In this document: in pieces, positions 1 to 33,436 of the stretch
Numbering within the stretch: position 1 is the stretch's first letter
How the letters are laid out: every line of letters starts with the position of its first letter
IMG/VR virus record: IMGVR_UViG_3300048592_001373
Coordinates: 1 to 40,630 of that record
DNA length: 40,630 nucleotides
Reading direction: 5' to 3' (one strand)
From: a virus
Translations under genes and position numbers: made by a program
The notes under the pieces: model-generated
Told to the model about the DNA's origin: nothing
The model's input: the letters and a program-made list of their open reading frames with translations, nothing else
Database searches by the model: none

Positions 1-393
1 TCAAAGTGTTATTTGTAGTGGTCCTAAAATCATACGCCCTGGTTTCTTTGGAAGCACAGTAAATGGTCCCACAATTAAATCACTGGAAAGCGAGTCCTTA
101 AATACAACTCCGGCAACTCTAATTGTTTCACCTGTTGCTGTAAGATCAAAGTTATATAAAGAACTGGCTGTGCTAACTTTATAAATTGTTAAGCTGTCAC
201 GATTCAATTGTGTGTAATCACCAAAATCAACCAGCGGACATTTATTAATATCTGTTCCTTTCCACACAAGTAAATAAGCTGAATCAACCGGCTCTGTTAT
301 TGTGTATGGCTGTGTTAGATGCACCGGCTGAGCCATACAGCTGATTACACCAAACACAAACAACATCATAAAGAACACAAATATCTTTTTCAT
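1..393 (-). CDS. Small exported protein, possible lipoprotein
   Basis: No family recognised (130 residues). The N-terminus is a clear Sec signal: Lys-Lys at residues 2-3, then a hydrophobic stretch rich in Phe, Met and Val to about residue 19. It contains V-I-S-C, which fits a lipobox with the Cys as lipid site; an A-Q just after it would also fit ordinary signal peptidase I. The rest is beta-rich and has no cysteines apart from one in N-K-C-P. It is the last gene of the leftward tail operon, 2 bases after the 67-residue gene. The stop codon is the first three bases of the window. A role on the cell surface of infected or lysogenic cells is inference. Confidence 0.7.
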   Translation of the reverse strand: MKKIFVFFMMLFVFGVISCMAQPVHLTQPYTITEPVDSAYLLVWKGTDINKCPLVDFGDYTQLNRDSLTIYKVSTASSLYNFDLTATGETIRVAGVVFKDSLSSDLIVGPFTVLPKKPGRMILGPLQITL

Positions 394-849: not shown

Positions 850-3800
850 CTAAATAGTTTTCCACTGTGGTATGCCTTGATTATTTATTTCATAACAAAT
901 GTTTACTGAATTGTCCGATGTTTTTATATAAACATCACCAAGAGAAACGCTGGCCGTTGGAGCCGCAGCTAACCGGCCATGAAAACGAACTAATGGTTTA
1001 CCGGCAACCCTGAGATCTGCTGCTTGTATCTCTACACCAAGCGAACTAAATCTTAAGTAGTTATCTGGCGCATTGTAAACTTCTAATCCGGTTGGTGTTA
1101 TATAAGTGAAGTACTTGTTATAACCATTAATTGCAAAGTTGCTAAGCATCATTGAAAATGGTGAATACTCTCCCAGCTGAGAGCCGCCATTAAAAACAAA
1201 ATTTAATTCTATATAAGATGTTCCGGATATAACAGGAAAGGTTGCTGTAATTCCATTTGAGCCGGTTCTATCAAAAATATTATTCGCTCCATAATTAACC
1301 GGATCATCAGGCACGCTGATATTATCTTCTAATCTCTGCTGATAAATAAGACTGTTTGAACTGTTATAGTAATTTAGAAATACTGAGTAGCTGCCGCCAT
1401 GCTCAGAATAATTTTGAAAGTAATCCTGGAACTTTAATAAATATTCAAACTTTAGTGTCTTACCCATTACCAGCTTTATATTATCCAAACGATGAGAAAT
1501 CCATAAAGACCAGGTTTCAATGTTTGTTAACTCACCAATAATAATTGTATTAACCTGACTAACCTGTGTGAATATCCAATATGGATTATAAGTTGTTATC
1601 TCACCAACATAATAATTAGATGCTGCATTCTGATACCACTTGGTTGAATCTGTATATGGTGAGCTGGAATCAAAATCAGAACTGTCTAAACCCGAATAAC
1701 CAATATGATCTATTGTTGTATTGTTTGGCCCGTAACTAAATGCACTTGTGTTATAAGTAAAATCACCAACCTTTACATAATCAACAGACGATTGTGAAAT
1801 AACTAAACCCTTATCCGATGAATTTATACTGAGCCTTACATTGCCATTGTAAAATTTTTCAGTATCAAAAGTCCATCCTGCAATTTTGTTGGTAGATCCA
1901 AGTTCAAAAATATTTGAAGAGCCGCTCTTGCCGATTATACCCCACGTGCTTCCGTTAAAACCGATCGAGATTGTATCGTTACCAACCCACACTGCTGAAG
2001 CTGTTGCATTCTTTCTTACAACTATTCCATAATCACTTAATGCGATATTTGGATTTTGTATTGTTCCGCCAAACCCGCCTTTGATAGCCCACATTCCATA
2101 TCCGGTGGTTAATACTGGTGTGCTTCCATCTGTCTTTTGATAGATAGTTGAAAGTGAACCCTCTTCAATTTGTAATCCGTGAAACTGATAATTATAAGTT
2201 GCAGAGTAAGTTAACTCCAGTACTGCTCTCGGATAGTTTTCGCTGGTCGGATCGTTAGGACAATTAAAAACTAATGAAACTCTTTTCCATTCAGTTGTAA
2301 TGTTAACAACCTGTGTTCCAAGATCAGTTTGATTAGTTGGATAAAAATATTTGTAGAATGTATGATTGCCTGCCAATGCTGCATTACTAACACGAACCCA
2401 GAATGAAATAACCCACGTTTTATTTTCATATGCACCAGCAGCAACCCAGCTTCTTGTTGTATCACCGTGAATTATCGCATAAACATTTCCGGATGAGTTT
2501 GATTTTCTTATTGTGCTTACTAAACCAGTGCTGCCACCCGGAGTTTGTGTTGATGTGGTGCCAACAACAAAATTTGAATTTCCAGTCCACGCCCATAATG
2601 GATAACCAGTTGTTCCGGCATCAACTCCTTCAGAAATTTTTGCATAATTTTTTTGTATCCTGCCGGCATAAAAAACAGGATCAAAACCATAAGCATCACC
2701 TGCAGAAATAGTTCCCCATATATTTGCATTGCCGGCTAAGTAAGCATTTTGAGTGTATAATCCATATCCGTTTAATTCACCAAAAGGAGTAGAAGACATT
2801 CCTGTTAATTTTCCTAAGCGTGCTTTAATCTTTGTTGGACTAGTCCAGGCTGCCCAGTTATTAACATCATTTGTAATATCAATGTATGGTGCATTGCTGT
2901 CATCAGAAGTTAAATAAACAGCACCTTGCCTGTTAGAATAATTTGTTGAATCTGTATTTCCGATTCTTACAACAACATCACCAGGTTCAATTATTCCGGT
3001 TGCTGTTGGCCCGTCTGCAAGGTTCTGAATATAAACAGTAGTGTTGGATACGCTGGTAACTTCTTTTACAATTCGCTTTACAATTGTAGTGCTGTCTAAT
3101 CTTACTCGTTGAATAAGTAAAATATCACCTGCAGCAAAAGGTGCAATGTTATGACCGTACGGATCTTCAACAATGATGCTTCCCGGGTCACCAGTTACAT
3201 AGGCTTTTACTTTTGCAGAACTTGTTACAAATAATGATCCGTTAGTTGCTCTTATTTGATTGATAACAAGTTCAAAAACATTTAATGTGCCCCTTACCCA
3301 AATGTTATCAATCTCAAGTGTGCTTTCTGAATTATTTGTAATTCCATAATCAAGCCGCCAACCTGATCCAGTCCATCCACTGGTAAAATTATTATAAAGC
3401 GAGTAATTACCTGAGTGTTTAAAATGACCTTCAAGATTAAACTTTTCTGTTAGTGTAGAAATATTGATGCCAACATTCCCGTTAGTATCTATTCTTAATC
3501 GTTCTATATTTCCTGCACCTGTTTGAAAAATATAATTTCCGGATGGAACTCTAAAGTATAATCCTCCCGTGCCTGTTAAAAATGAGGAGGTAGCATTGGT
3601 ATGAATTGAAAAAGACTTACTATCTCCGTCAGCATTCACATATAAAGTGCTTGATTGACCCGTTGCTCCTTTTACATAAAAATTTGTAGTAGTTAACTCA
3701 TTTAATATTTGTGCATTGCCTCTTACATCAAGTTTATATCCAGGTAGTTGGGTACCGATTCCAACATTGTTTGCAACATAAAGATTATTTTTTACATCTA

Positions 3801-6525
3801 TAGTTCCGTTGTTATACAGAATAATCTTTTCTGTATTATTAGAATCTTTAACCTTGAAGTCAAACCATGTCGTTGTTGGAGTACCTTTGCTAACGAGAGG
3901 CTGCATCCTTGTTTCGCAATTTCTTGAAACCCAATAGTTTAATCCGGAAACCCAGCAATCACTGTCTGCTCGTGCAGTAATGTTGATTTCTATTTCTGAA
4001 CAGAAATAATCACTCCCTCCCATATCGATTTCAAAAACTCTACCATAACTACCATCAGGGGAAATGTTAATGCCTGTTTTTAAATCACGCCACTCGAATG
4101 TACTACCAGCATTTTTTGTTCGTAGTCTTGCAGTGCAACCCTCGGGGTAACTCGTTCCATAAGTATGTATGTATATTTTTCCACCGTAGGCATAAGTAAA
4201 TCCATTTATTGAATCAAACTCACCCTTACTAATGAGATTAATATGTATGGTAGCAGTTGTATTCGCTAATATTGTAAATGCTACAGTCTCATAATCTCCA
4301 TCTGCTAAATTGTCTAAGCCCCAATTATATTGATGCCCTGAAAGAGTTAAATCAAACCTTCTATTCATTGCATAGAAAAGATCATTTGTATTATAGGATT
4401 TAAATAATAACTGTCCGAATGGAGCATCAGTTAAGGAAAGAGGTAATGTTGTAATTAATCCTTTAAATGTTGGTATGCTCGAAGTTGCAATATCCTGAAC
4501 CGTATTTAACAGGTTAGAAGATAGCCTGAGGTTTGTGCTGTTGTATCCAAGCGATAAAGTAATATTGCTCAGTAAATTGCTTCCACCGGTTAATGGATAA
4601 TTTGTTGAGATTGTTCTGCCTGCTCTTACAGCATTGCCGGCATTTTCCGGATCACCGGATAAATTTATTTGTGCAAATGTTGGTATGTCTGTTGTCTTTA
4701 TTCCCTGTGCTGTATCAAGCTGATTTGAAGTTATCTTTAAATTATTTGTATATGCAAGAGAAACAATTCCACCTGAAACAACTAAAGGTATATTAAACGC
4801 ATAACTAACACCGCTTCCGCCACCGGTTGTGCCTGATGTTGAACCGGATACTGTTGAACTTGCAGAATCTTCAGGCGAACCAACAACAATACTTCTTAGA
4901 TCATAATCGTGTCCTGTTATTTCAACCGGCTCTAATGTTACTGTTCTCTCAGCACAATCAAATTCAAGTGATGTAAAAAAAGTATCATCAGATAAAATTT
5001 CTAAAAGATCAATAAGTTCCCAGTTAATCGTGTTATCATCCAGGTCAAGTGTCAAATCAAAAGCCGAATGTCTAAGCCCATAAAAATTTAATATCGAAAG
5101 TGCTTCACTTGCAGCGTGTGCATCAATCTCTGCCTGCGTATCCATATCATCAGAGCTTGCAAGTATATCTTTTGTAATTGAGTTTTTAGGTTTTATTTTA
5201 TCAGCTGCAGAAAATCCTGAAGGCTGCTTTGTCATCTCACTGTAGCCAATAAGATTTTTTCCGGTTTCAGGGTCAAGCACCCAGCTCTGCACCGTAACTT
5301 CAACACCATCAACAAGTTTATCCCAAAAATATCTTTTTTCCGGTCCCGATATTATTTTTGTTGTTCCTATGGTTCTAACTGTACCGCTGGTAGCTAAGTG
5401 AGCTTTACTCTGTACAATGCAGTTACCGGTTTTATCAATAAAGACATAACTCTTAAAAGTATCTGCAAGCATTTTAACCGCATCTAAAGGTGTTCGGTTA
5501 AAAGGATCTGCGCTCATTGTTTGGCGCCAGTAAGAATACGGAATATTAAAAGTTGTTACACCTCTAAAGGTTACTGTTATATCCGGCCACGCTTTTATAA
5601 TTAATCTTTTTAATATTATTTCTCCCTTAAACGATGTAAGTATATAAACCCATCTTGAAATAGTGGAGTTGTACACGTAGCTTATGTTTGATACTGTTTC
5701 TCCCAGGTATTCATCATCATAAAATTTTAACTTGATGTCTGAATCATCAGACAGGTAGCAGTCTGTATCTGTTAAATAATATGTAGCTGCTAAATTATCT
5801 GTATCATTTGCAGCAATAATTATTGTATCGTTTTCACCAGGATAACTTGCATCATCAAAATACTGCTGTACTGCAAGTGCATAAAGATTTCCGTTTACGC
5901 TGTCTTCTTTTACTAATATTTGTCCCGCTGTTAAAAAAGCATCTGCACTAATATCAATATGTACAGGTGTAAATGATGGTGATAAATGTTTGAATACATC
6001 AATGCGTATAAAATTCATTATGGGCGGAGTAGGGCCGGTATCAAACTGTATAACAATAGAATAATATTCGCCTGCAGCCCAGTTTAATGCAGGCATGCTT
6101 GTTGGCCTGTTTTCCCAAAATGTTTTTAATGTTCTTAAGCCTGTGTTTTGTAAAATATTTAATGCACTCAATTTATCAACTATGTCAAAGCTTACAGCTT
6201 TTGCATAATCAGGCCAGCGTAATGTTGAAAAATCTGCCATTCCCTCAAATAGCTGTACATAAGTTTTATCGCTCTTTGGTGCTGATATTCTGAAAACATA
6301 TCTCTGCTTAACTGATAGATCTGCTGAGAACGCAGTATGTACCGGTGAGCCCGAAGCATATTTTAATTTTACATTTGCAACATCAAAAACAATTGCACCG
6401 GCTTCACCATCATTTTCGCTTTCAACTTTTTTGCTGATAACTGGCGGCTCTAATAAATAGGTGCTCCAATCCTGCCAGCTTCCGGATGGGTAATCTTTAA
6501 ATTCTATTTTAATAGGATACAGCAT
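850..6525 (-). CDS. Giant tail tip / fibre protein
   Basis: 1891 residues, the largest gene here. Residues about 1-545 look like a tail-tip or hub domain, with a short repeated pattern of membrane-free beta structure and an acidic stretch typical of structural tail proteins. A Gly/Ser/Thr linker follows at about 555-570. The rest is fibre: repeated segments of the T-x-x-I-P-T-F type at about 610-690, a V-G-I-G-T-Q-L-P motif at about 920 and a related N-V-G-I-N motif near 1018. A beta-sandwich resembling carbohydrate-binding modules (F-W-V-R-V-S, W-K-R-V-S-L-V-F) lies at about 1340-1475, and a short tip domain ends in Q-W-K-T-I. It follows the tape measure by 8 bases, the usual place for a siphovirus tip/receptor-binding protein. 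No intramolecular chaperone/peptidase domain was seen. The host receptor is unknown; sugar binding is inference. Confidence 0.85.
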   Translation of the reverse strand: MLYPIKIEFKDYPSGSWQDWSTYLLEPPVISKKVESENDGEAGAIVFDVANVKLKYASGSPVHTAFSADLSVKQRYVFRISAPKSDKTYVQLFEGMADFSTLRWPDYAKAVSFDIVDKLSALNILQNTGLRTLKTFWENRPTSMPALNWAAGEYYSIVIQFDTGPTPPIMNFIRIDVFKHLSPSFTPVHIDISADAFLTAGQILVKEDSVNGNLYALAVQQYFDDASYPGENDTIIIAANDTDNLAATYYLTDTDCYLSDDSDIKLKFYDDEYLGETVSNISYVYNSTISRWVYILTSFKGEIILKRLIIKAWPDITVTFRGVTTFNIPYSYWRQTMSADPFNRTPLDAVKMLADTFKSYVFIDKTGNCIVQSKAHLATSGTVRTIGTTKIISGPEKRYFWDKLVDGVEVTVQSWVLDPETGKNLIGYSEMTKQPSGFSAADKIKPKNSITKDILASSDDMDTQAEIDAHAASEALSILNFYGLRHSAFDLTLDLDDNTINWELIDLLEILSDDTFFTSLEFDCAERTVTLEPVEITGHDYDLRSIVVGSPEDSASSTVSGSTSGTTGGGSGVSYAFNIPLVVSGGIVSLAYTNNLKITSNQLDTAQGIKTTDIPTFAQINLSGDPENAGNAVRAGRTISTNYPLTGGSNLLSNITLSLGYNSTNLRLSSNLLNTVQDIATSSIPTFKGLITTLPLSLTDAPFGQLLFKSYNTNDLFYAMNRRFDLTLSGHQYNWGLDNLADGDYETVAFTILANTTATIHINLISKGEFDSINGFTYAYGGKIYIHTYGTSYPEGCTARLRTKNAGSTFEWRDLKTGINISPDGSYGRVFEIDMGGSDYFCSEIEINITARADSDCWVSGLNYWVSRNCETRMQPLVSKGTPTTTWFDFKVKDSNNTEKIILYNNGTIDVKNNLYVANNVGIGTQLPGYKLDVRGNAQILNELTTTNFYVKGATGQSSTLYVNADGDSKSFSIHTNATSSFLTGTGGLYFRVPSGNYIFQTGAGNIERLRIDTNGNVGINISTLTEKFNLEGHFKHSGNYSLYNNFTSGWTGSGWRLDYGITNNSESTLEIDNIWVRGTLNVFELVINQIRATNGSLFVTSSAKVKAYVTGDPGSIIVEDPYGHNIAPFAAGDILLIQRVRLDSTTIVKRIVKEVTSVSNTTVYIQNLADGPTATGIIEPGDVVVRIGNTDSTNYSNRQGAVYLTSDDSNAPYIDITNDVNNWAAWTSPTKIKARLGKLTGMSSTPFGELNGYGLYTQNAYLAGNANIWGTISAGDAYGFDPVFYAGRIQKNYAKISEGVDAGTTGYPLWAWTGNSNFVVGTTSTQTPGGSTGLVSTIRKSNSSGNVYAIIHGDTTRSWVAAGAYENKTWVISFWVRVSNAALAGNHTFYKYFYPTNQTDLGTQVVNITTEWKRVSLVFNCPNDPTSENYPRAVLELTYSATYNYQFHGLQIEEGSLSTIYQKTDGSTPVLTTGYGMWAIKGGFGGTIQNPNIALSDYGIVVRKNATASAVWVGNDTISIGFNGSTWGIIGKSGSSNIFELGSTNKIAGWTFDTEKFYNGNVRLSINSSDKGLVISQSSVDYVKVGDFTYNTSAFSYGPNNTTIDHIGYSGLDSSDFDSSSPYTDSTKWYQNAASNYYVGEITTYNPYWIFTQVSQVNTIIIGELTNIETWSLWISHRLDNIKLVMGKTLKFEYLLKFQDYFQNYSEHGGSYSVFLNYYNSSNSLIYQQRLEDNISVPDDPVNYGANNIFDRTGSNGITATFPVISGTSYIELNFVFNGGSQLGEYSPFSMMLSNFAINGYNKYFTYITPTGLEVYNAPDNYLRFSSLGVEIQAADLRVAGKPLVRFHGRLAAAPTASVSLGDVYIKTSDNSVNICYEINNQGIPQWKTI

Positions 6526-6533
6526 TTATAAAA

Positions 6534-8969
6534 TTACAGTCTGGATTTATTGTTAAGATATTTTCCCCTTGCGTTTATCTTCTTTGCTTGCTTATCATCA
6601 AGAAAGGCTCGAGCTGATATTCCATCATCAAGATGTTTATTAAGCTTGTTTAACGCTGCTTTAATGTCTCCATAATCAGCAGTTAATCCAAGACTTCCAC
6701 TTGAGCTTCCTCTTGAGCTTCTCAGCTCATCACGCAGCGTCATCATCGTCATTGTAATAAGTTTTGATTGGCCTGAAGCGTAATCCTGGAAAGGTGCAAT
6801 AATCTCTGGTCCCTCTTCGCCAACAACAGCTCCGCCTTTTTTATAACCTGGTAATTTCTGTTGCGATATAACTGCCACGTTTGCAAGCCCACCTGCTATA
6901 ACAGCGGCCATTAAAGGCCAGCCAAAAATTGGCCCCAAACCCACCGGCGGTTCTTTTAGCGCGGAAGTTGCTGCGCTGTAAGTAGACATAGTGGTGTTTG
7001 CTATATCTCCAGCCTGTTTAAGCGTAAACCAAATGCCAAGTTTTTCAGCCGCCCTTTTATTGGCAGCATCCTCAAGTTGTGCTTGTTTTCTATCAAATTG
7101 CTCGTTTATTTTTTCGCGCTGTGCTTGTGTTCTTGCGTGCTTAAGTGCAGCTTCACGCTCAGCTTCAAGTTTTTTATCTTCTTTATCTCGCCAGCCAGCA
7201 ATTTCCCTGCTGGCATTAATACTAAATGCCTCATAAGCAGTATTAAGTGAGTTTTGCCAAGCAGAGGTTATTTGGCTATACGTACTAATTTTTTCCATTA
7301 ATATCTTTTTATCGCGCTCCCTTATCTTTCGAGCATAATATTCTTCTATTAAATCTTTTGCTTTTTCAAACTGTTCTTTCGATATTAATTCCTGAGTATA
7401 AGCTTCTTCATAAGCATTAACCTCATCAAACATTTTTTGTTCATAATTTTCTTTTGCCCCTTCACGATAGGTACTGTCTATCTTTGCGTATTTATCTGCC
7501 CAATCTTTTTTCTGATCTTCTAAATCCTTATAATATTTTTCAAAATCTTTTTTATCCGGTGGCTTTATTAAACCATTAACACCATTGATCTCTAAACCTC
7601 TGGGTTTTAGATTTTCACTTAAAAGTTTTTCTTCTTCTTCACGTATATGTTTTTTAATCTCAAGTTCTTTTTCAGCAATTGCATAATTTATTTCTGTTAC
7701 ATCTTGTCCATATTTTAAATAAAAACTTTTCTTTTCTTCAAGCAGTTGTTTTTCTTTTGATAGTATGATTAAATTGTGATTAGTTGTAAGCTTGAGCATA
7801 TTAATTTCGTGCTCTTGCTGTTTATCAAAAGTTTCAGCAAATTTTTTATCATCCTTGCCTTTACCACTAAGCCTATCAAGTGTTTTTGAATCAGACTCAA
7901 TCCATTCAGATAAAATTCTTCTTGCATCTTCAAGTGAAGTTGCTTGCTGTACAATCTCTTTATAATTATCAGCAGTTAACGATCTTCTTTTTTCTTCATT
8001 TACATTAATTTTTAATCCCAAATCAACTTCATCACCGAGTACAGATTTTCTTTTATAGAGCATTTCCAATTCTTTAGTTAATTGATTAGCCCTATTTATT
8101 TCATCTTCTGTCAGTTTATTATTTGTGGTTACTCTTGTACTGCCTTCACCAATTGTAAATGCAGGCAATTGGCCTTTGAGTTGTATTTTAGATAATTCAT
8201 CTGATCTCTCATTAATCATTTGATCAATCGATAACTTTGTCATGCTTTTTAATTGATCGTTAAATTTCTTTAAACCATCTTCTGCCGCCGTTTTACTTTT
8301 TTCATTAATCTTTTCAAAGATCGTAGGAAGAACTGTTAATGCAAACATCAATGCATTAGCACTTAAAACCATTTTCATTGATGCATCCATACTGTTTTTT
8401 AAGAATGCACCCATACTCATATTTGCAGTTTTTGCTTCCTGACTAACCTGTGCTAAACCCTGCACAATAAATGGAATGTTATTACCGATTGACATTAAGA
8501 ACATTCTAAAATCAACTGCAATCATTGATGCATCACCAAGAGCAAAACCAAACTGTCCAACTGCCATTCGTGCGCTGTTGCTGGCGCCTGTAAAAGCTCT
8601 CTGTTGTGCAATTGTTCTTTGATATGCATTTGATAAGTTTTCTATTGCCTGTCCGTGTGTTCTCCATTGTGCGCTGCCAACAGATAAAACTCTTTGTTCT
8701 TCTCTAAGTGTATTTATTACGGATTGGATTTCAGGTTCGGTCATTTCGTTGTACCGGATAAAATCCATTATGCCGGTGGTGGCTTCTTCAGCTGATGCAT
8801 TTACCAATAGCAGATCTTTGGCAAATTGTTTTAGTATCGGTCTATCCTGGATTTTATTTATGGAAGCATTAAGATCTTCAAAATCTTTTTTTGCTATCTG
8901 CACAGTAGCAGTTGCTTCTTTTCCATCAATCACTAACTTAAACGTAAGTATCTGATTCTCGTTTGCCAT
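6534..8969 (-). CDS. Tail tape measure protein
   Basis: 811 residues. The tape measure sets tail length and occupies the tail lumen. Evidence: a helical N-terminus; two hydrophobic segments at about 136-175 and 198-219; a long charged coiled-coil middle (about 370-640) full of Lys/Glu/Gln; a hydrophobic Gly/Ala-rich segment near 676-698. Near 712-722 comes the G-G-A-V-V-G-E-E-G-P-E motif that is typical of tape measure C-termini. It lies directly upstream of the tip/fibre gene. At about 2.4 kb it predicts a tail of roughly 120 nm using the usual 0.15 nm per residue rule. In most siphoviruses the tape measure follows the tail chaperones directly; here four extra genes intervene. Confidence 0.9.
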   Translation of the reverse strand: MANENQILTFKLVIDGKEATATVQIAKKDFEDLNASINKIQDRPILKQFAKDLLLVNASAEEATTGIMDFIRYNEMTEPEIQSVINTLREEQRVLSVGSAQWRTHGQAIENLSNAYQRTIAQQRAFTGASNSARMAVGQFGFALGDASMIAVDFRMFLMSIGNNIPFIVQGLAQVSQEAKTANMSMGAFLKNSMDASMKMVLSANALMFALTVLPTIFEKINEKSKTAAEDGLKKFNDQLKSMTKLSIDQMINERSDELSKIQLKGQLPAFTIGEGSTRVTTNNKLTEDEINRANQLTKELEMLYKRKSVLGDEVDLGLKINVNEEKRRSLTADNYKEIVQQATSLEDARRILSEWIESDSKTLDRLSGKGKDDKKFAETFDKQQEHEINMLKLTTNHNLIILSKEKQLLEEKKSFYLKYGQDVTEINYAIAEKELEIKKHIREEEEKLLSENLKPRGLEINGVNGLIKPPDKKDFEKYYKDLEDQKKDWADKYAKIDSTYREGAKENYEQKMFDEVNAYEEAYTQELISKEQFEKAKDLIEEYYARKIRERDKKILMEKISTYSQITSAWQNSLNTAYEAFSINASREIAGWRDKEDKKLEAEREAALKHARTQAQREKINEQFDRKQAQLEDAANKRAAEKLGIWFTLKQAGDIANTTMSTYSAATSALKEPPVGLGPIFGWPLMAAVIAGGLANVAVISQQKLPGYKKGGAVVGEEGPEIIAPFQDYASGQSKLITMTMMTLRDELRSSRGSSSGSLGLTADYGDIKAALNKLNKHLDDGISARAFLDDKQAKKINARGKYLNNKSRL

Positions 8970-9364
8970 TATAGTATCCAGAAAGTTAGTGTAAAGATTA
9001 AACCGTGATAAGTGTATGCAAGTATTGTTAAACCAATTACTGCAAGTGTTTTATTATAATTAGGTCTGTCTGCAGTTAATGGTTCAGTTTCAGGATCAAG
9101 TGGTTTGAAATGCAACTCAACAACCAACAATGCAGCAATGCATAACAATGCAACAATTCTAATGGCATCAAAACAATGCCAGCCATCGCTGACAAAAGAA
9201 AAAATACTTTCCTCTAACCAGGTGCGGTTATTCCACGCAAAGTTTCCTTCAGCAAACCACCAATCATTTTTAAATGGAAAAGTATCTTTGTGGAATTTTA
9301 TGGAGTCACAAAATCCTTTTGCGATTGCTGAGATAGTTATTAAAGCAACTAATACTTTAACCAT
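8969..9364 (-). CDS. Membrane protein of the inserted cassette
   Basis: 131 residues, not recognised. Three hydrophobic segments are visible: residues about 2-20, about 70-85, and about 108-128 at the C-terminus. Between the first two lies an aromatic Trp/Phe-rich loop (D-W-W-F-A-E-G-N-F-A-W). It overlaps the upstream secreted-protein gene by 16 bases, and its stop codon touches the tape measure start. It belongs to the four-gene group of exported or membrane proteins inserted between chaperone and tape measure. An inner-membrane role such as superinfection exclusion or lysis help would be guesswork. Confidence 0.65.
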   Translation of the reverse strand: MVKVLVALITISAIAKGFCDSIKFHKDTFPFKNDWWFAEGNFAWNNRTWLEESIFSFVSDGWHCFDAIRIVALLCIAALLVVELHFKPLDPETEPLTADRPNYNKTLAVIGLTILAYTYHGLIFTLTFWIL

Positions 9365-9702
9365 CTTGAAACTTCTATCCTTGAAGGTTTGCCTGCTGTT
9401 GGTGTGCTGCCAAATTTGTAATAGATCTTGTCTATAGTTAGAGGAACAGACATTCCTTCACCGCCGGTTCTTACAAATGTTGCGCTATCCGGAAAGGCAG
9501 GGCTTAAGCTGATAAACATTGTATCGGTTGCGGCAGCATCATTTATTATTGTGATGTTTGCGCTTGTAAATCCGAACACAACACTATCAACTCCGGCAGA
9601 GCTGATGCTGTTCTTTGTAAGTACATTGGCTGTTGTTTGTGCGCTTAAGTTAATTGCACTTACTGCAGCAAATATTAAACTGAATAAAAGTAATTTTTTC
9701 AT
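9349..9702 (-). CDS. Small secreted beta-rich protein
   Basis: 117 residues, family not recognised. It has a classic Sec signal peptide: Lys-Lys-Leu-Leu, a hydrophobic core, then L-S-A-Q with likely cleavage after Ala at about residue 21. The mature part is Ser/Thr/Ala-rich with alternating hydrophobic residues (beta sandwich), lacks Cys, and contains S-V-V-F-G-F-T-S-A-N and an aromatic C-terminus (R-W-L-K-Y). This pattern resembles small phage decoration or fibre-associated beta proteins, but a signal peptide is unusual for a virion protein. It sits between the fibre-like gene and the membrane-protein gene. Confidence 0.65.
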   Translation of the reverse strand: MKKLLLFSLIFAAVSAINLSAQTTANVLTKNSISSAGVDSVVFGFTSANITIINDAAATDTMFISLSPAFPDSATFVRTGGEGMSVPLTIDKIYYKFGSTPTAGKPSRIEVSRWLKY

Positions 9703-9724
9703 TTTTAATTTCTCCGATTAATTT

Positions 9725-10480
9725 TTACCACGTTACTTCGTTTAGGGCTACACGCTTCCAGGTGTTGGTAGCTACACAAATGTAAATGTAATCTGTTGTT
9801 ATTCTTATTTCTCCAACTGTGCCTGTACTTGTACTGGTTGCGGGTGCTGTGTTTAGTGCGGAAAGTTTATATTGTGTTGACTTAATCGTACCATTGACTT
9901 CTAATTTCTCTGTTGTAGTCGTTACTCCTATTCCAACATTACCGTTATCCATAATTGTCATCCGGATCCCTCTTGTCGTGCCTAGTGTAGTTTGAAATTG
10001 TATAGAACAACTTCTATTCGACGAGCTCCAATTAGCCGTTGAAACAACACCTACAATACCTCTATTTGTTATCCAACCTGTACCGTCCCACCCTCCTGCA
10101 CCAAAAGTAAATAAGTTATCTCCTGATAAAACAGCAGTTGGGTTGGTATAACTGCCTCTTGATTTTAGTCCTAAAAAACTTACCGCATTTGTATTGTTAG
10201 AAGAAGAAGTCATAAATAAAGCTCTATCATTACTTCTAATATCTAAGATTCCTTGAGGGTCTCCTGTACCTATTCCTACTTCTCCATTGTTACTAATAAA
10301 TAATACTGTATCAGGGTCTCCATCAGGGGCTTTCAAACCTTTTGGAAATACTCCAGCTATAGTAGTGTCCAAATCTTGCAGAGAATAATTACTGCTATAT
10401 ATTCTGTTTACTTTGAAGTATTCTTGGGAAAATACAAGAGTATTTAGTAGACAAAATATCATTATAATTATATTTTTCAT
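9725..10480 (-). CDS. Exported tail-fibre-like protein
   Basis: 251 residues. The N-terminus is a signal peptide (hydrophobic residues about 3-17, ending V-F-S-Q). The mature part is a fibre sequence: V-G-I-G-T-G-D-P followed by L-D-I-R near residues 70-83, N-G-N-V-G-I-G near 180 with a following L-E-V-N-G, then a terminal domain (I-Y-I-C-V-A-T-N-T-W-K-R-V-A-L) seen at the ends of many fibre proteins of Bacteroidota phages and host surface proteins. It has the same two motif types as the giant fibre. Signal peptide plus fibre is odd for a virion part assembled in the cytoplasm; it may be displayed on the host surface instead. It is followed closely by the small secreted gene and preceded by the GH43-like gene. 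Confidence 0.75.
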   Translation of the reverse strand: MKNIIIMIFCLLNTLVFSQEYFKVNRIYSSNYSLQDLDTTIAGVFPKGLKAPDGDPDTVLFISNNGEVGIGTGDPQGILDIRSNDRALFMTSSSNNTNAVSFLGLKSRGSYTNPTAVLSGDNLFTFGAGGWDGTGWITNRGIVGVVSTANWSSSNRSCSIQFQTTLGTTRGIRMTIMDNGNVGIGVTTTTEKLEVNGTIKSTQYKLSALNTAPATSTSTGTVGEIRITTDYIYICVATNTWKRVALNEVTW

Positions 10481-10481
10481 T

Positions 10482-11495
10482 TTAGTTCGCTCCTAAAAAA
10501 ACATTACTTTTTTTTCTATTTACTTTGATAACACTCCCGTGATCAGCGTTAATATTAAAATCAATTATTGTACTCCAATTTCCATCTAATTTAATTGATT
10601 CACTGTATCCAAATCCTTGTGCTGCTCCATAAGGTGTTCTAACATCCAAATACAGCAGATAACCATAATTTGTTTTATGAATATTTTGTCCTTCAATTTC
10701 CCCACTCCAACCGCCAGACCAAGAGCCTATTTTGATCGGTGTATATTGACCTGTGAGTGTAGTTGAAGTAGCAAGCTCTATCTGATAAGGGGACTCGTTT
10801 AACTTGTAATACATGTAATATAAATCGTGCTCTTTGATTATATCTGAATCAATAATATTTGTTTTACCTGTAACTGTTATTTTTACCGGGAGCTTAAATG
10901 AATTAAAATTTATATTATTGGCCTCTAATAAATATGTCTGCATATCTGAAGCATTAGAAGTAAGGGATGCGGATACTATTATGTAATACTTTCCATCTTC
11001 TATATACCATTCAGGAGCAAAAGTACGCTGTATTCCTAGTCCTGATAAGTGTATATCTGCGACTTCATACCAATTATTTAAGTCTATCGATTTTATTATT
11101 GAGAAAAAATTTGTTCCAGTCACCCATGCTTGCCTTGTATATGCCACAAAAAATGTATCATTGACTTGTAAAATTGATGGGTCTCTAAAATTCCAGTTAG
11201 GGTTATAGACACCTCCTAAGTCTGTCCAATTTTTACCGTCGTCAGAAATTGCAATTCTTAGATATTCAACATTTACTGTGTCATCCCAATCAAGATAACC
11301 TCCTGATATTCTTTTAGAATTAAAGTAACTTAATACATATAAATCTGGCAATACTTCTATAGGATGTTCATCCATACTCAAAGAAATATTATTATGACTT
11401 AGTGTATAGCCGGATTTTCCGAAATAACTCTGGGAATAAGTATCACCGGATATAAAGGTTAATATTAGTATTGTGATAAGTGTTAAGTTTTTCAT
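10482..11495 (-). CDS. Secreted GH43-like beta-propeller protein
   Basis: 337 residues with a signal peptide (hydrophobic residues about 4-16, cleavage near T-Y-S-Q). The mature part shows repeated propeller-blade patterns as in GH43/GH32/GH117-type five-bladed glycosidases: S-D-D-G-K-N-W-T (blade turn), N-F-R-D-P-S-I (the R-D-P motif), F-A-P-E-W-Y-I-E-D-G-K-Y-Y (the A-P-E plus G-x-Y-Y pattern), and D-S-D-I-I followed by Y-Y-M-Y-Y. Acidic residues in R-D-P, A-P-E and near G-E-I-E-G could be the catalytic set. The substrate cannot be told; arabinose-, xylose- or galactose-containing surface glycans are possible. The ATG overlaps the stop of the frameshifted chaperone extension. A secreted glycosidase-like gene inside a tail operon suggests a moron or a depolymerase. 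Confidence 0.7.
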   Translation of the reverse strand: MKNLTLITILILTFISGDTYSQSYFGKSGYTLSHNNISLSMDEHPIEVLPDLYVLSYFNSKRISGGYLDWDDTVNVEYLRIAISDDGKNWTDLGGVYNPNWNFRDPSILQVNDTFFVAYTRQAWVTGTNFFSIIKSIDLNNWYEVADIHLSGLGIQRTFAPEWYIEDGKYYIIVSASLTSNASDMQTYLLEANNINFNSFKLPVKITVTGKTNIIDSDIIKEHDLYYMYYKLNESPYQIELATSTTLTGQYTPIKIGSWSGGWSGEIEGQNIHKTNYGYLLYLDVRTPYGAAQGFGYSESIKLDGNWSTIIDFNINADHGSVIKVNRKKSNVFLGAN

Positions 11496-11803
11496 TTTTC
11501 CTCTTCCAGGTATTCTATATATGCTATGTGTTCAAGTAGTTTGTTTAAGTCGTTAACTTTGTTTTGATAGTAGTAATCATTAACCAATCGTTCACTTGCT
11601 TTTCTAATTTGCTTTGCTCTTCCAGGATCACCCTCGCTTAAATACATTACCATCAATTCATTGTTTGTAAGCTTAAGCTTACTGTTAAAAAGTTCGGTCT
11701 TGTATCCCTTTATCTTTTCATATTTTTTTATTGCTTTGTTAGTTTCTCTATTAACTCTGCTGATTCTTTTGAGATAGCGCTGCCTTTCTTCACTCTTGAT
11801 ATA
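11492..11803 (-). CDS. Tail chaperone C-terminal extension (gpT-like, reached by -1 frameshift)
   Basis: An open frame of about 103 codons without a convincing start of its own, in the -1 frame relative to the chaperone gene ending at 11728. Entry is by slippage at the T-run at 11811-11803; the next codon read is TAT at 11803-11801. The fused product would be about 94 residues of the upstream protein plus 103 here, about 197 in all. The extension is very charged and helical (Lys/Arg/Glu-rich, with N-D-Y-Y-Y-Q-N and a C-terminal Y-L-E-E-E-K), as are gpT domains that bind the tape measure. Its stop overlaps the next ATG as ATGA. The position between tube protein and tape measure agrees with the lambda G/GT scheme. 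Confidence 0.75.
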   Translation of the reverse strand, partial: YIKSEERQRYLKRISRVNRETNKAIKKYEKIKGYKTELFNSKLKLTNNELMVMYLSEGDPGRAKQIRKASERLVNDYYYQNKVNDLNKLLEHIAYIEYLEEEK

Positions 11804-12084
11804 AAAAAAAACATAAACACTTTTACTTGCACGCTCTCTTTAATTTTTCCAAAGTTGAAATCTGCAGGTACCGGTCTGCCATCAACCGGCTCAAGTACAA
11901 TTGATAAAAACCTTTTAATGTCTTTTGCACTTGCGGAGGCCACAACAGTTGAGTTACCGGGAGAGAAAAAAAGATTAAGCAGCTTTCCGGCTTCTTCAGA
12001 TTCATCAAGATCGAGATCTTCTTTTAATCTGAAATCAACTTCGCCTATCTTAAATACCTGGTCTTTTAATAAATCAATTTTCAT
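11728..12084 (-). CDS. Tail assembly chaperone (gpG-like)
   Basis: 118 residues, short and acidic at the N-terminus (D-L-D-L-D-E-S-E-E), helical at the C-terminus. Sequence similarity to a named family is not evident. Three things point to a G-type tail assembly chaperone: position downstream of the tube protein and upstream of the tape measure, the size, and a T-run frameshift site at codons 92-94 that leads into a -1 frame overlapping this gene's end. The start ATG lies about 30 bases beyond a hairpin at 12115-12135. Confidence 0.65.
   Translation of the reverse strand: MKIDLLKDQVFKIGEVDFRLKEDLDLDESEEAGKLLNLFFSPGNSTVVASASAKDIKRFLSIVLEPVDGRPVPADFNFGKIKESVQVKVFMFFFISRVKKGSAISKESAELIEKLTKQ
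11803..11809 (-). promoter_or_regulatory. -1 ribosomal frameshift slippery heptamer T-TTT-TTT
   Basis: In the chaperone gene the codons read GTG TTT ATG TTT TTT TTT ATA. A run of nine T on the minus strand (11811-11803) gives the X-XXY-YYZ heptamer T TTT TTT. Slipping back by one base moves the ribosome into a frame that stays open to 11492, whereas the zero frame stops at 11728. I did not establish a stimulatory hairpin downstream. Confidence 0.7.
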
Positions 12085-12157: not shown

Positions 12158-12490
12158 CTATAATGCGTCGCGTGCCTTACGGTACAAGAACATCCGATCA
12201 CCTTGCGTGATTGAACTCTCTGATCTTTTGTAAATATTATTTGGTAATTCTTGGTTTTCATCTTTTGTGATTAAGTCTGACACGACTATAAATTTCAACT
12301 CGTTTTGTTCAACCTTAATAATCAGGTGATCAGCATTTACTAACTGGTCAGTGATTATCATTGGGTTTTCTTCTGCAACGAAACAGCACGTTGCTTTCTG
12401 CAATCCAGGGGGAGAATTGCTGAAAGCAAAAACCGGCAGGATTATTGCCATCAACAAGATGATCAATCCTGCATATACGATTCCTTTCAT
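12158..12490 (-). CDS. Small exported or membrane-anchored protein
   Basis: 110 residues, not recognised. A strong hydrophobic segment at residues about 4-22 ends in F-A-F-S, a signal peptide or membrane anchor. A C-C pair (A-T-C-C-F) follows at about residues 35-36, then a mixed beta region (L-I-I-K-V-E, L-K-F-I-V-V-S) and a charged C-terminus. It lies between the tube-operon gene at 12527 and the chaperone gene, in a place where siphoviruses do not normally carry exported proteins. Whether it is a moron or an unusual tail component cannot be told. Confidence 0.6.
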   Translation of the reverse strand: MKGIVYAGLIILLMAIILPVFAFSNSPPGLQKATCCFVAEENPMIITDQLVNADHLIIKVEQNELKFIVVSDLITKDENQELPNNIYKRSESSITQGDRMFLYRKARDAL

Positions 12491-16956: not shown

Positions 16957-16985
16957 GAACCATCTTATATATTTTATAGGGTTTG

Positions 16986-17058
16986 TTGCGGAGACAGGAC
17001 TTGAACCTGCAACCTTCGGGTTATGAGCCCAACGAGCTTCCATTTGCTCCACTCCGCT
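16986..17058 (-). tRNA. tRNA-fMet: Initiator-type tRNA-Met (CAT)
   Basis: A full cloverleaf can be drawn on the minus strand: acceptor arm GCGGAG/CTCCGC, D stem GAGC/GCTC, anticodon loop CTCATAA with anticodon CAT, T stem GCAGG/CCTGT with loop TTCAAGT. Two marks of bacterial initiator tRNA are present: three G-C pairs (GGG/CCC) in the anticodon stem, and an unpaired first acceptor position (A1 opposite A72; E. coli has C-A). CCA is not encoded: A is followed by CAA. It lies inside the late operon between the capsid and gp36-like genes, so RNase P processing from the late transcript is likely. Confidence 0.9.
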
Positions 17059-29564: not shown

Positions 29565-29804
29565 ATGGGAAAAAATAATTCAGCTATTCAAAAGGTATTT
29601 AATTCTATAGTTAAAAAAAGAATACCGAACGTAATTCTAATTGATAATGGAAAATCACTTTGTGGTTCTCGGGCTACTTTGGCAATCGGAAAACTTCAAG
29701 ACAATGGTTACACAATAGAAAAGCTTTCGTCGTATGATCAATCAAAAAGTAGCATTGAAAAACAGTTACGCCAACTTCAACAATTGAACAATGCAACAGT
29801 CTAA
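29565..29804 (+). CDS. Hypothetical early protein upstream of the transposase
   Basis: 79 residues, not recognised. Basic N-terminus (K-K-R-I-P-N-V-I-L-I-D-N-G-K) and a Gln-rich end (R-Q-L-Q-Q-L). It runs 14 bases into the frame of the transposase gene if the first transposase ATG is used, but is separate from the better start at 29809. Preceded by AAGGAT. Confidence 0.6.
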   Translation: MGKNNSAIQKVFNSIVKKRIPNVILIDNGKSLCGSRATLAIGKLQDNGYTIEKLSSYDQSKSSIEKQLRQLQQLNNATV

Positions 29805-29808
29805 CTCT

Positions 29809-31755
29809 ATGGAAGCGCAATTAATTTCTCTAAAGCAATTAGCACAGTTAACGGATGAAGTTAACTGGCAATCCGTTTACAACACAATCCGTAAACGAGC
29901 TCAGAGGGGTAAATATCAATCTTATCAACTAATAAAAGGTGAAGGCTACATAAATACAAACGATCAGGCTATTCCGGTTTCTGTAAGACTTAAATTACAG
30001 TCAGGGTTACTTCCTGAACTACAAAAAATACAAACCAACAATGTTGAGAGTGAACTTTCTAAAAAGCAATTAGAATTTGCACTTGCTGCTGCAAAGCTTG
30101 TTAACCTGTTTATTGATTTTGCCAACCAGGATAAATTCAAAGGCAACAAAGTAAAAGCAGAGATTAAATTTGCTGAAGTTTATAACAACAAAGCTTTTGA
30201 AGATATATACAATGTAATTGGTGAAAGATCTCTTCAGACAATACGAGGCTGGCGTACAAAGTATTTAAGAGCTAACAAAGATTATAGAGTCCTGGCTCCT
30301 CAATACAAAATAAAAAAAGCTTGCAGTATACCGCCTCAGCAATCGGAAGTGCTTATTAAACTGCTGTTAAATCCTAATCAACCGCTCATTAGCGAAGTAA
30401 TAAGACAAGCCACAAACTACTTTGAAGCAAAAAGATTTCCGCACATAAAAAGCTACAACACTTACAAAAGATTCCTTGATGCCTGGATTAAAAACAATTA
30501 TGCAGATTACGTTTTTCATACTAAAGGTGAAAAGGGTCTTGATGATTTAGTGCTGCCTTATTTAGAACGAGACTGGAATCTTGTTGAAGTTGGAGACATT
30601 ATAATAATGGATGGTCACGTTAACAATTACGAGATCATAAATTGTTTCCCGGATAAGAATGGAAATATATCCGGCTTGCCAAAACGTATGATGACAATAG
30701 CTGCTATTGACGGAAGATCTCAGTTCCTGGCCGGTTATGAAATTACACCAACAGAAAATGTAATGAGTATTGCTTCTGCAATAAGAAGAGCAATTATAAT
30801 GCTCGGCAAGTTTCCAAAGGTAGTTTATATAGATAACGGAAAAGCATTCTCTGCTAAATACTTTCATCAATCTGATCTTGAAAATTTAGTTCCATTGTTT
30901 TCACGTCTCGGAATAAGAGTAATCTTTGCAAAAGCATATCATGCTCAGTCAAAACCGATTGAAGTATTCTGGAAATGGATGGCAGAACTTGAAAGATTGA
31001 TTCCAACTTATGTAGGTACGTCAATCGAAATGCAGCCGCCTAGAATGAATCGCGGCGAGTTTATCCACAGAAAACTTTATGAGAAAGCTATCCAGAACAC
31101 AACCATAACAATCTTTCATGCACACAGAGCAATGGGCTGGTGGCTGGATCAATATCATAACAGAGTAAAAACTTCAGGACATCTTAAAGGTTTAACTCCT
31201 AGAGAAGTATTTGAAGCCGGCAGAGGAGATGGAGTAGATAAGAAAGAACTTAACTACTTAATGATGGATGCCCAGGTAACTAAGCTTTACAGAAAGGGAA
31301 TCCGGTTTGCCGGTACATGGTATTATAATGAAGCCTTGTTTGGTAAACAGATTGATGCCGGTGATGAAGTTTACTTTAAGTATGATCTGTTTGATCGTAA
31401 ATCAATCCTTGTATATGATGTTGAAGGCAATCCTATTTGTGAAGCCTTTGACGTGAGTAAAGTACATCCAGCTGCAGCTCTTCTGGGTTCGCACGAACAG
31501 ACCGAAGAAGTTAAAAAGCAATTAACTCTTAAAGAAAGCTTAAAGAAAACAGTTGTTGGCTCTTACCGGCAATATGTTGAAACTGAAGTGTTCCCGGAAG
31601 TTAAGCAGCGCCTGCAAGATGCAAACATAATTCAGCTACAGGAAGATACTTCAATGCCGGAGGGCAATGATGAAGTAAAGCCAAAGAAAAAAACAAGATC
31701 TCTTATTGATCGATGGTCAGCGCCTGTAGAAAATAAAAAACAAAAACTTGGTTAA
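29809..31755 (+). CDS. Transposase (MuA-like DDE recombinase)
   Basis: About 648 residues from the ATG at 29809 (M-E-A-Q-L-I-S; an earlier ATG at 29791 adds 6). Order: winged-helix end-binding region (about 1-75), helical DNA-binding region, DDE core. With the earlier start as residue 1, the catalytic triad is Asp274 (I-I-M-D-G-H), Asp348 (V-Y-I-D-N-G-K) and Glu391 (S-K-P-I-E-V-F-W-K-W), close to Mu D269/D336/E392. A beta-barrel and basic tail (P-K-K-K-T-R-S-L-I-D-R-W) follow, the part that binds MuB. It cuts and joins the phage ends in integration and replicative transposition. Confidence 0.95.
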   Translation: MEAQLISLKQLAQLTDEVNWQSVYNTIRKRAQRGKYQSYQLIKGEGYINTNDQAIPVSVRLKLQSGLLPELQKIQTNNVESELSKKQLEFALAAAKLVNLFIDFANQDKFKGNKVKAEIKFAEVYNNKAFEDIYNVIGERSLQTIRGWRTKYLRANKDYRVLAPQYKIKKACSIPPQQSEVLIKLLLNPNQPLISEVIRQATNYFEAKRFPHIKSYNTYKRFLDAWIKNNYADYVFHTKGEKGLDDLVLPYLERDWNLVEVGDIIIMDGHVNNYEIINCFPDKNGNISGLPKRMMTIAAIDGRSQFLAGYEITPTENVMSIASAIRRAIIMLGKFPKVVYIDNGKAFSAKYFHQSDLENLVPLFSRLGIRVIFAKAYHAQSKPIEVFWKWMAELERLIPTYVGTSIEMQPPRMNRGEFIHRKLYEKAIQNTTITIFHAHRAMGWWLDQYHNRVKTSGHLKGLTPREVFEAGRGDGVDKKELNYLMMDAQVTKLYRKGIRFAGTWYYNEALFGKQIDAGDEVYFKYDLFDRKSILVYDVEGNPICEAFDVSKVHPAAALLGSHEQTEEVKKQLTLKESLKKTVVGSYRQYVETEVFPEVKQRLQDANIIQLQEDTSMPEGNDEVKPKKKTRSLIDRWSAPVENKKQKLG

Positions 31756-32214: not shown

Positions 32215-32472
32215 ATGGTTGGACAAATTGAATTTGTTTGGGATAAAGGCAAACCAAGTTTAAAGGTTGATGGGAAAGAAATATCAAGGATGTTTATTAC
32301 TAATATTTCTGTTTCCGCCGACAGTGATGGATTAAAATTTAACCTGGGATTATATCTCAGCAACTTTTTACTCAGAGATAATGGTGAATTATTGTTAAGT
32401 CATCTGGGTGGCAACGAGACACTTCTAAAAGAAATTTATAAAAAATTAAAAACAAAATTTGAAGGAGAGTAA
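32215..32472 (+). CDS. Hypothetical small protein before the MuB-like gene
   Basis: 85 residues, not recognised. Beta-rich with short strands (I-E-F-V-W-D-K-G, L-K-V-D-G-K-E-I-S-R-M-F), then helical and charged at the end (K-K-L-K-T-K-F-E-G-E). AGGAGAG is placed well upstream of the ATG. It ends 5 bases before the MuB-like start. Confidence 0.6.
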   Translation: MVGQIEFVWDKGKPSLKVDGKEISRMFITNISVSADSDGLKFNLGLYLSNFLLRDNGELLLSHLGGNETLLKEIYKKLKTKFEGE

Positions 32473-32476
32473 TACA

Positions 32477-33436
32477 ATGTCTAAAATACAATTAAGTGAT
32501 ACACAAATTGCGGATGTACGTGAACGATTAAACTCTGTAATGGATAATAATGGTTCCATAAGTAATGCTGTGGTTGGTAAAAACATCGGATACTCTGCAG
32601 CTTACGTTTCACAATTCCGCAACAACAAATTTCCAACACCTGAAAAGCAAAGTGAGTTTGCTGAAAAAGTGGATTCATATCTTAACAGCATTCAGGGAGA
32701 AACAAATCAAACTTCATCTACCGGCCATTTGAACTTTGCAATGACAACTGCTGCTACAACAATTTTTAAGACAGCTGAGTATGCATCAAAGAGACATAAA
32801 ATAGGAGTTGTTGTTGGTGTGCCTGGCGGCGGCAAAACAATTAGTGTTAAAGAATTTGTTAAACGCAATCCAAACAATGTACTTGTAGAAGTTGCTCCAT
32901 TTGTAACAAAGCATAGTTTTTTAAGAAGCATTTGCAACTCGTTAAAGATTCCAATTTATGTTGCACGCAATGAAAAAGATATTGCCATCAATGGTGGTGA
33001 ATTATTTGAAAGCATTGTTAAAGCTCTTAACGGAACAAACAGATCCTTAATTGCTGATGAAGGTGAAAATCTTACAACTGCTTGTTTAGAAATAATCAGA
33101 AGAATTCACGACTTCACCAGTGTTGGAGTTTTACTTTCCGGTACTGAAACTCTTCTTTTAAGATTGCAGGGACCACGAAGAGAATTAAAGCAGCTTTACT
33201 CAAGAGTTGGAATGTGCAATCGCATACCATTATTAAATGAAAAGGATGTTAAAGCAATTCTTGATGTAAACTTTCCTGAAGGATTAAAGTATTATCAAAA
33301 CTTTTTACAGCTGGCAAAAAACAACGGCCGTACACTTGAGCAGTTAATAGATCTTGTTAAAGAAGATATTAAAAACACAGGCGAAACGCTTACTGAAGAT
33401 GTTATTGATTTAGCCGCAGAAAGTCTGATCAGATAA
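32477..33436 (+). CDS. MuB-like AAA+ ATPase (target selection)
   Basis: About 319 residues from the ATG at 32477 (M-S-K-I-Q-L-S), which has AGGAGAG at a good distance; a 6-residue longer form from 32459 overlaps the previous gene. N-terminal HTH at about 30-50 (V-V-G-K-N-I-G-Y-S-A-A-Y-V-S-Q-F), as in MuB. Walker A G-V-P-G-G-G-K-T at about 114-121 and Walker B S-L-I-A-D-E-G-E at about 190-197. It binds target DNA with ATP and activates the transposase; it also gives target immunity. The C-terminal domain is helical. Confidence 0.93.
   Translation: MSKIQLSDTQIADVRERLNSVMDNNGSISNAVVGKNIGYSAAYVSQFRNNKFPTPEKQSEFAEKVDSYLNSIQGETNQTSSTGHLNFAMTTAATTIFKTAEYASKRHKIGVVVGVPGGGKTISVKEFVKRNPNNVLVEVAPFVTKHSFLRSICNSLKIPIYVARNEKDIAINGGELFESIVKALNGTNRSLIADEGENLTTACLEIIRRIHDFTSVGVLLSGTETLLLRLQGPRRELKQLYSRVGMCNRIPLLNEKDVKAILDVNFPEGLKYYQNFLQLAKNNGRTLEQLIDLVKEDIKNTGETLTEDVIDLAAESLIR

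Follow-up and report, generated by a model that had tools for sequence, protein, structure and literature searches.

A candidate set of exported fibre- and glycosidase-like proteins encoded within the tail operon of a Mu-like phage

The cassette and its insertion site

The window analysed here is the whole 40,630-nt record IMGVR_UViG_3300048592_001373, which encodes a Mu-like transposable phage. Besides a MuA-type transposase and a MuB-type protein, the phage possesses terminase, portal, protease and capsid genes and a minus-strand tail operon (Table 1). Its relationships are distant: the closest capsids of named phages are only ~30% identical to its own, known phages display no DNA-level similarity to it, and a search of GTDB genomes with the capsid protein returned no relatives. 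Five viral contigs carry capsids 60–70% identical to that of this phage. The structural operon includes a tRNA-Met gene immediately behind the capsid gene (16985–17058, minus strand); relative L002 has one in the same place (11138–11210), and none was detected in L003–L006. The gene in the endolysin position has an apparent signal-like N-terminus in relatives L003 (7399–7944) and L005 (12236–12793), a feature not seen in the endolysin of this phage (15532–16116).

Four consecutive minus-strand genes (11495–8969) occupy the 2.5 kb between the frameshifted tail assembly chaperone and the tape measure gene. The chaperone itself spans 11728–12084, and its −1 extension reaches 11492 via a run of nine T, giving a fused product of ~197 aa. 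In all five capsid relatives the site is empty, the chaperone frameshift extension directly adjoining the tape measure gene; the slippery run is kept as nine T in four of them and as nine A in the fifth. The block is therefore an insertion relative to these phages, and synteny bears out the statement of the first-pass annotation that the two flanking genes are normally adjacent. Its four open reading frames were also correctly called: all lie on the minus strand, three of the products pass a rule for Sec signal peptides, and the fourth has three hydrophobic segments. It overlooked two more genes with signal-like N-termini, one before the chaperone and one where both the tail module and the contig end. 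Both encode small orphan proteins: the 110-aa product was not found among the relatives' genes, which lack it in the corresponding position, and the 130-aa product matches no family. A terminator-like hairpin (12135–12115, minus strand) is located between the gene of the 110-aa protein and the chaperone.

The inserted genes are tightly coupled to each other and to their neighbours. The gene of the 337-aa protein shares an ATGA overlap with the chaperone extension (11492–11495), 1 nt separates it from the gene of the 251-aa protein, a further 22 nt precede that of the 117-aa protein, the latter and the 131-aa gene overlap by 16 nt, and the 131-aa gene meets the tape measure gene in a TAATGG overlap at 8969. 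Given this packing with the tail genes, and with no convincing promoter or terminator found inside the cassette, the four genes are likely expressed late, together with the tail genes. The junctions also bear on whether assembly could have joined unrelated sequences, a concern raised by the facts that this is a single virus contig and that the cassette occurs in none of the relatives found. However, each junction is formed by a perfect overlap of genes, and in base composition the cassette matches its flanks, so that we regard an artefact as highly improbable.

Table 1. Features of the window; all coordinates refer to the record, and (-) denotes the minus strand.
Feature	Coordinates	Strand	Evidence
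Extra predicted exported protein, 130 aa, end of tail module and contig	1..393	(-)	signal-like N-terminus
Virion tail/fibre protein, 1891 aa, without signal peptide	850..6525	(-)	phrog_33450
Tape measure protein, 811 aa	6534..8969	(-)	phrog_3336, E=1e-10; matches relatives' tape measure
Small membrane protein, 131 aa	8969..9364	(-)	hydropathy: three hydrophobic segments, 1-19, 64-82, 106-124
Small beta-rich orphan, 117 aa, predicted exported, signal peptide ~1-22	9349..9702	(-)	signal rule
Fibre-like protein, 251 aa, predicted exported, signal peptide ~1-19	9725..10480	(-)	PDB 8ol4, E=4.5e-11
GH43-type glycosidase-like propeller, 337 aa, predicted exported, signal peptide ~1-22	10482..11495	(-)	Pfam GH43, E=5e-17
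Tail assembly chaperone including -1 frameshift extension	11492..12084	(-)	relatives retain the slippery run and the -1 frame
Extra small protein, 110 aa, predicted exported or N-terminally anchored	12158..12490	(-)	signal-like N-terminus
MuA-type transposase	29791-31755
MuB-type protein	32459-33436

Predicted export and domains of the cassette proteins

Signal peptides were called with a crude home-made hydropathy rule, not SignalP. About 5% of viral open reading frames of at least 100 aa pass this rule without later membrane spans, and the chance of three consecutive passing frames is about 1.5e-4 per position. The leaders of the 337-, 251- and 117-aa proteins each begin with a lysine-containing stretch, continue into a strongly hydrophobic core and finish in an SQ/AQ end that resembles a cleavage site. 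The starts that include the leader are preceded by good ribosome sites, and no plausible start for a leaderless protein was found downstream. Judging from these leader sequences, the three proteins are predicted to be exported via Sec.

The 337-aa protein scores 62.5 bits against PF04616 (curated cut-off 32.2). An AlphaFold (AF2) model built from a six-sequence alignment reached pLDDT 70 and pTM 0.73, and its best Foldseek matches in the PDB were nearly all GH43 five-bladed propellers, with probability 1.00 and moderate TM-scores (0.45–0.58). D105, D216 and E268 are invariant between this protein and its phage and bacterial relatives; D105 aligns to the DPSI motif and E268 to the TEGP motif of xylosidase 1yrz, while D216 was placed by motif only. 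These residues fit the GH43 base, pKa modulator and acid and are putative catalytic residues. The GH43-like propeller of the first-pass annotation is thus upheld by Pfam and fold search alike, and the structure prediction that it had proposed for the catalytic acids, together with alignment, yielded a GH43 fold with all three acids kept. GH159 was considered as a nearer family, and its weak profile and fold match (7zei) was not better than GH43.

The phage relatives of this protein, found in Propionibacterium phages and in the viral locus L013, are tail-fibre proteins. Gp21 of Propionibacterium phage Anatole and the L013 protein (phrog_18920) also contain this GH43-like domain and keep its three acids, but they are leaderless, longer and encoded in the virion tail module, so that in the cassette a virion-type domain bears an export leader. 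A bacterial relative is a GH43-GH35-like protein encoded on a Niveispirillum megaplasmid.

The 251-aa protein consists of a MAT/VGIG shaft (residues ~96–200) and a C-terminal tip (~205–251). Its tip is common to phage PAU gp257 and to cyanophage structural proteins, and a plasmid search with the protein gave no matches. The shaft region matches Bdellovibrio Bd2439 (8OL4, E=4.5e-11), the structure of which was solved with GlcNAc-MurNAc. Bd2439, Bd1334 and Bd2133 are MAT fibres, surface-displayed in Bdellovibrio, which share with the cassette protein a signal peptide, a VGIG-type shaft and a phage-fibre-like character (PMC10769870). They differ in being bacterial chromosomal proteins of ~1000 aa that have other tips and act in predation. 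The MAT family has a beta-rich domain of ~130 aa right after the signal peptide; in the 251-aa protein ~75 residues separate the leader from the shaft match.

Since the phage already has a leaderless virion fibre of 1891 aa, the exported fibre is an additional one. The V-G-I-G motifs reported as common to both proved real but modest, with 29% similarity over 148 aa (E about 5e-6) involving residues 915–1038 of the virion fibre. A common tip is unsupported (hhalign probability 2.5% for the tips). As it is the shaft, and not clearly the tip, that the two fibres share, a common receptor is unproven; of the receptor mask proposed earlier the related shaft stands, and masking of the phage's own receptor is conjecture.

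The two remaining proteins, of 117 and 131 aa, have no relatives among families, phages or viral contigs, and a single-sequence model of the former (pLDDT 40) was too poor for use. Viral contigs likewise yielded no close relatives of the tape measure, the GH43-like protein or the small beta protein.

Tip-bearing fibres with predicted export in other phages

Scanning viral contigs with the tip gave 142 matching stretches, of which 80 loci were kept. Signal peptides are present in 8 of 49 non-redundant complete tip-containing frames versus 9 of 240 background frames of at least 150 aa (p=0.003). One of the eight is gp257 of phage PAU, which is labelled a Sphingomonas phage and infects Sphingobacterium (PMC3738902). 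Like the 251-aa protein, gp257 carries a signal peptide, and the C-terminal tip is common to both (57% identity across a 71-column alignment), but gp257 is 669 aa long and lacks an adjacent glycosidase.

Other loci combine such fibres with further exported proteins. Downstream of the exported fibre of G003 come an exported protein of 1416 aa bearing a SASA carbohydrate-esterase domain and one of 118 aa, also exported; that of G004 precedes exported proteins of 236 aa and 683 aa, the latter with beta-helix and fn3. An exported 707-aa protein of G005 represents a BNR sialidase-like propeller fused to the tip, the BNR match lying just below the curated cut-off (E=8e-7). G004 also contains two small exported proteins directly after a likely capsid gene (L101, 4965–5906), and the tail module of G007 (L103), a relative of this phage, ends with two genes for exported proteins of 310 and 285 aa (3968–5754), followed by a DNA adenine methylase-like gene. 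By automated count, an exported gene lies beside 2 of the 8 exported fibres and 2 of 41 controls (p=0.12; p=0.035 if the cassette that prompted the comparison is included), a clustering that is marginal against the control and suggestive only. The recurrence of exported tip fibres, some of them next to glycan-acting domains or combined with one in a single protein, suggests a hitherto unrecognised phage action on the host surface.

Possible roles of the cassette

The reading that we favour, to which we give somewhat less than an even chance, is that a late exported adhesin and a glycan-acting enzyme bind or trim host surface glycans near lysis, limiting superinfection and the loss of progeny to debris. 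An accessory insertion in the late tail operon would supply a Sec-exported, tail-fibre-related set of surface proteins: the GH43-type glycosidase, the fibre, whose tip presumably binds sugars or surfaces, and the small beta and membrane proteins. Produced alongside the virion late in the lytic cycle, these would arrive in the periplasm or on the outer surface, where the fibre would attach to a glycan used by phages arriving at the cell and by those just released, and the glycosidase would trim it. Neither the dying cell nor its debris would then capture phages any longer, providing both superinfection exclusion and progeny release. The observations behind this reading are the insertion, the operon coupling, the leaders, the GH43 fold with its acids, the fibre and tip homology and the recurrence in other phages; from them we infer export, an outer-surface location, enzyme activity, a target glycan, the timing and the purpose of the cassette. 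For the late-expressed surface cassette of the first-pass annotation, operon structure strongly favours co-expression with the tail genes, and an intact-looking glycosidase and a tip-bearing fibre agree with action from outside the cell, whether this would be masking, glycan remodelling or depolymerisation.

An analogous purpose is served by different proteins and a different route in phage T5. The exported Llp and Cor-type lipoproteins block the receptor of the phage and keep phages from adsorbing unproductively to infected cells and to fragments of lysed ones (PMC9586334). However, they are small lipoproteins, and Llp, described as early-expressed, targets a TonB-dependent transporter from the periplasmic side, whereas the products of the cassette resemble fibres and glycosidases and are encoded in a late tail operon, and its three leaders have no lipobox, their SQ/AQ-like ends not being followed by cysteine.

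As the main alternative, the proteins could be virion accessories, such as a side fibre and a glycan-cleaving decoration, which pass via Sec and remain periplasmic, joining particles when the cell lyses or afterwards; we consider this rather unlikely, though well worth weighing. Elsewhere the GH43 and tip domains belong to virion proteins. In L031 an exported fibre directly follows homologues of baseplate gpJ and gpI and has a BppL_N motif of lower-baseplate type after its leader; in G005 the exported fibre follows baseplate genes. In both cases the exported fibre occupies the position of the virion fibre gene and is the only fibre observed, which agrees better with a virion role, and the two exported genes after the capsid gene of G004 occupy the usual place of decoration proteins. 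This phage, however, has its own leaderless fibre, fibres normally join particles in the cytoplasm before lysis, and we know of no tailed phage with demonstrated assembly of fibres via Sec and the periplasm.

Lysogenic conversion, in which the exported adhesin and carbohydrate enzyme would aid attachment or feeding of the lysogen, appears improbable. The phage is Mu-like and temperate, the protein on the Niveispirillum megaplasmid offers a bacterial counterpart, and GH43 is among the families reported for viral CAZymes (PMC10227523), but overlapping starts and stops lock the genes in the late tail operon, so that a lysogen should express them little. The leaders could also be passengers of gene swaps, acquired with fibre modules from bacterial families that export fibres containing phage-like domains, such as the Bdellovibrio MATs, and without an export function for the phage. 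Yet leaders occur on three adjacent unrelated proteins here and on fibres of other phages, and they retain clean ribosome sites and cleavage-like ends where useless ones should decay; we therefore hold this explanation to be quite improbable.

Tail fibres and tail glycosidases are commonly regarded as virion parts assembled in the cytoplasm. Phages are already known to carry GH43 domains and to export superinfection factors, and bacteria to export fibres; what appears new, in the literature searched (mostly without subscription journals), is a set of exported fibre and glycosidase encoded within a tail operon and recurring across phages, since we found there no exported tail fibres and no direct precedent for such a set. 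We speculate, as a doubtful yet serious possibility, that some tailed phages of Gram-negative hosts Sec-export true virion fibres and glycan-cleaving decorations and at lysis load them onto particles outside the cytoplasm, or retain them as a secreted kit for receptor removal. We have found no description so far of either strategy in phages. That fibres bearing Sec leaders recur, in some cases adjacent to or joined with glycan-acting domains, implies that phages may also deploy such proteins in secreted form, which would bear on superinfection exclusion, on progeny release and on the annotation of fibre genes as host-range determinants.
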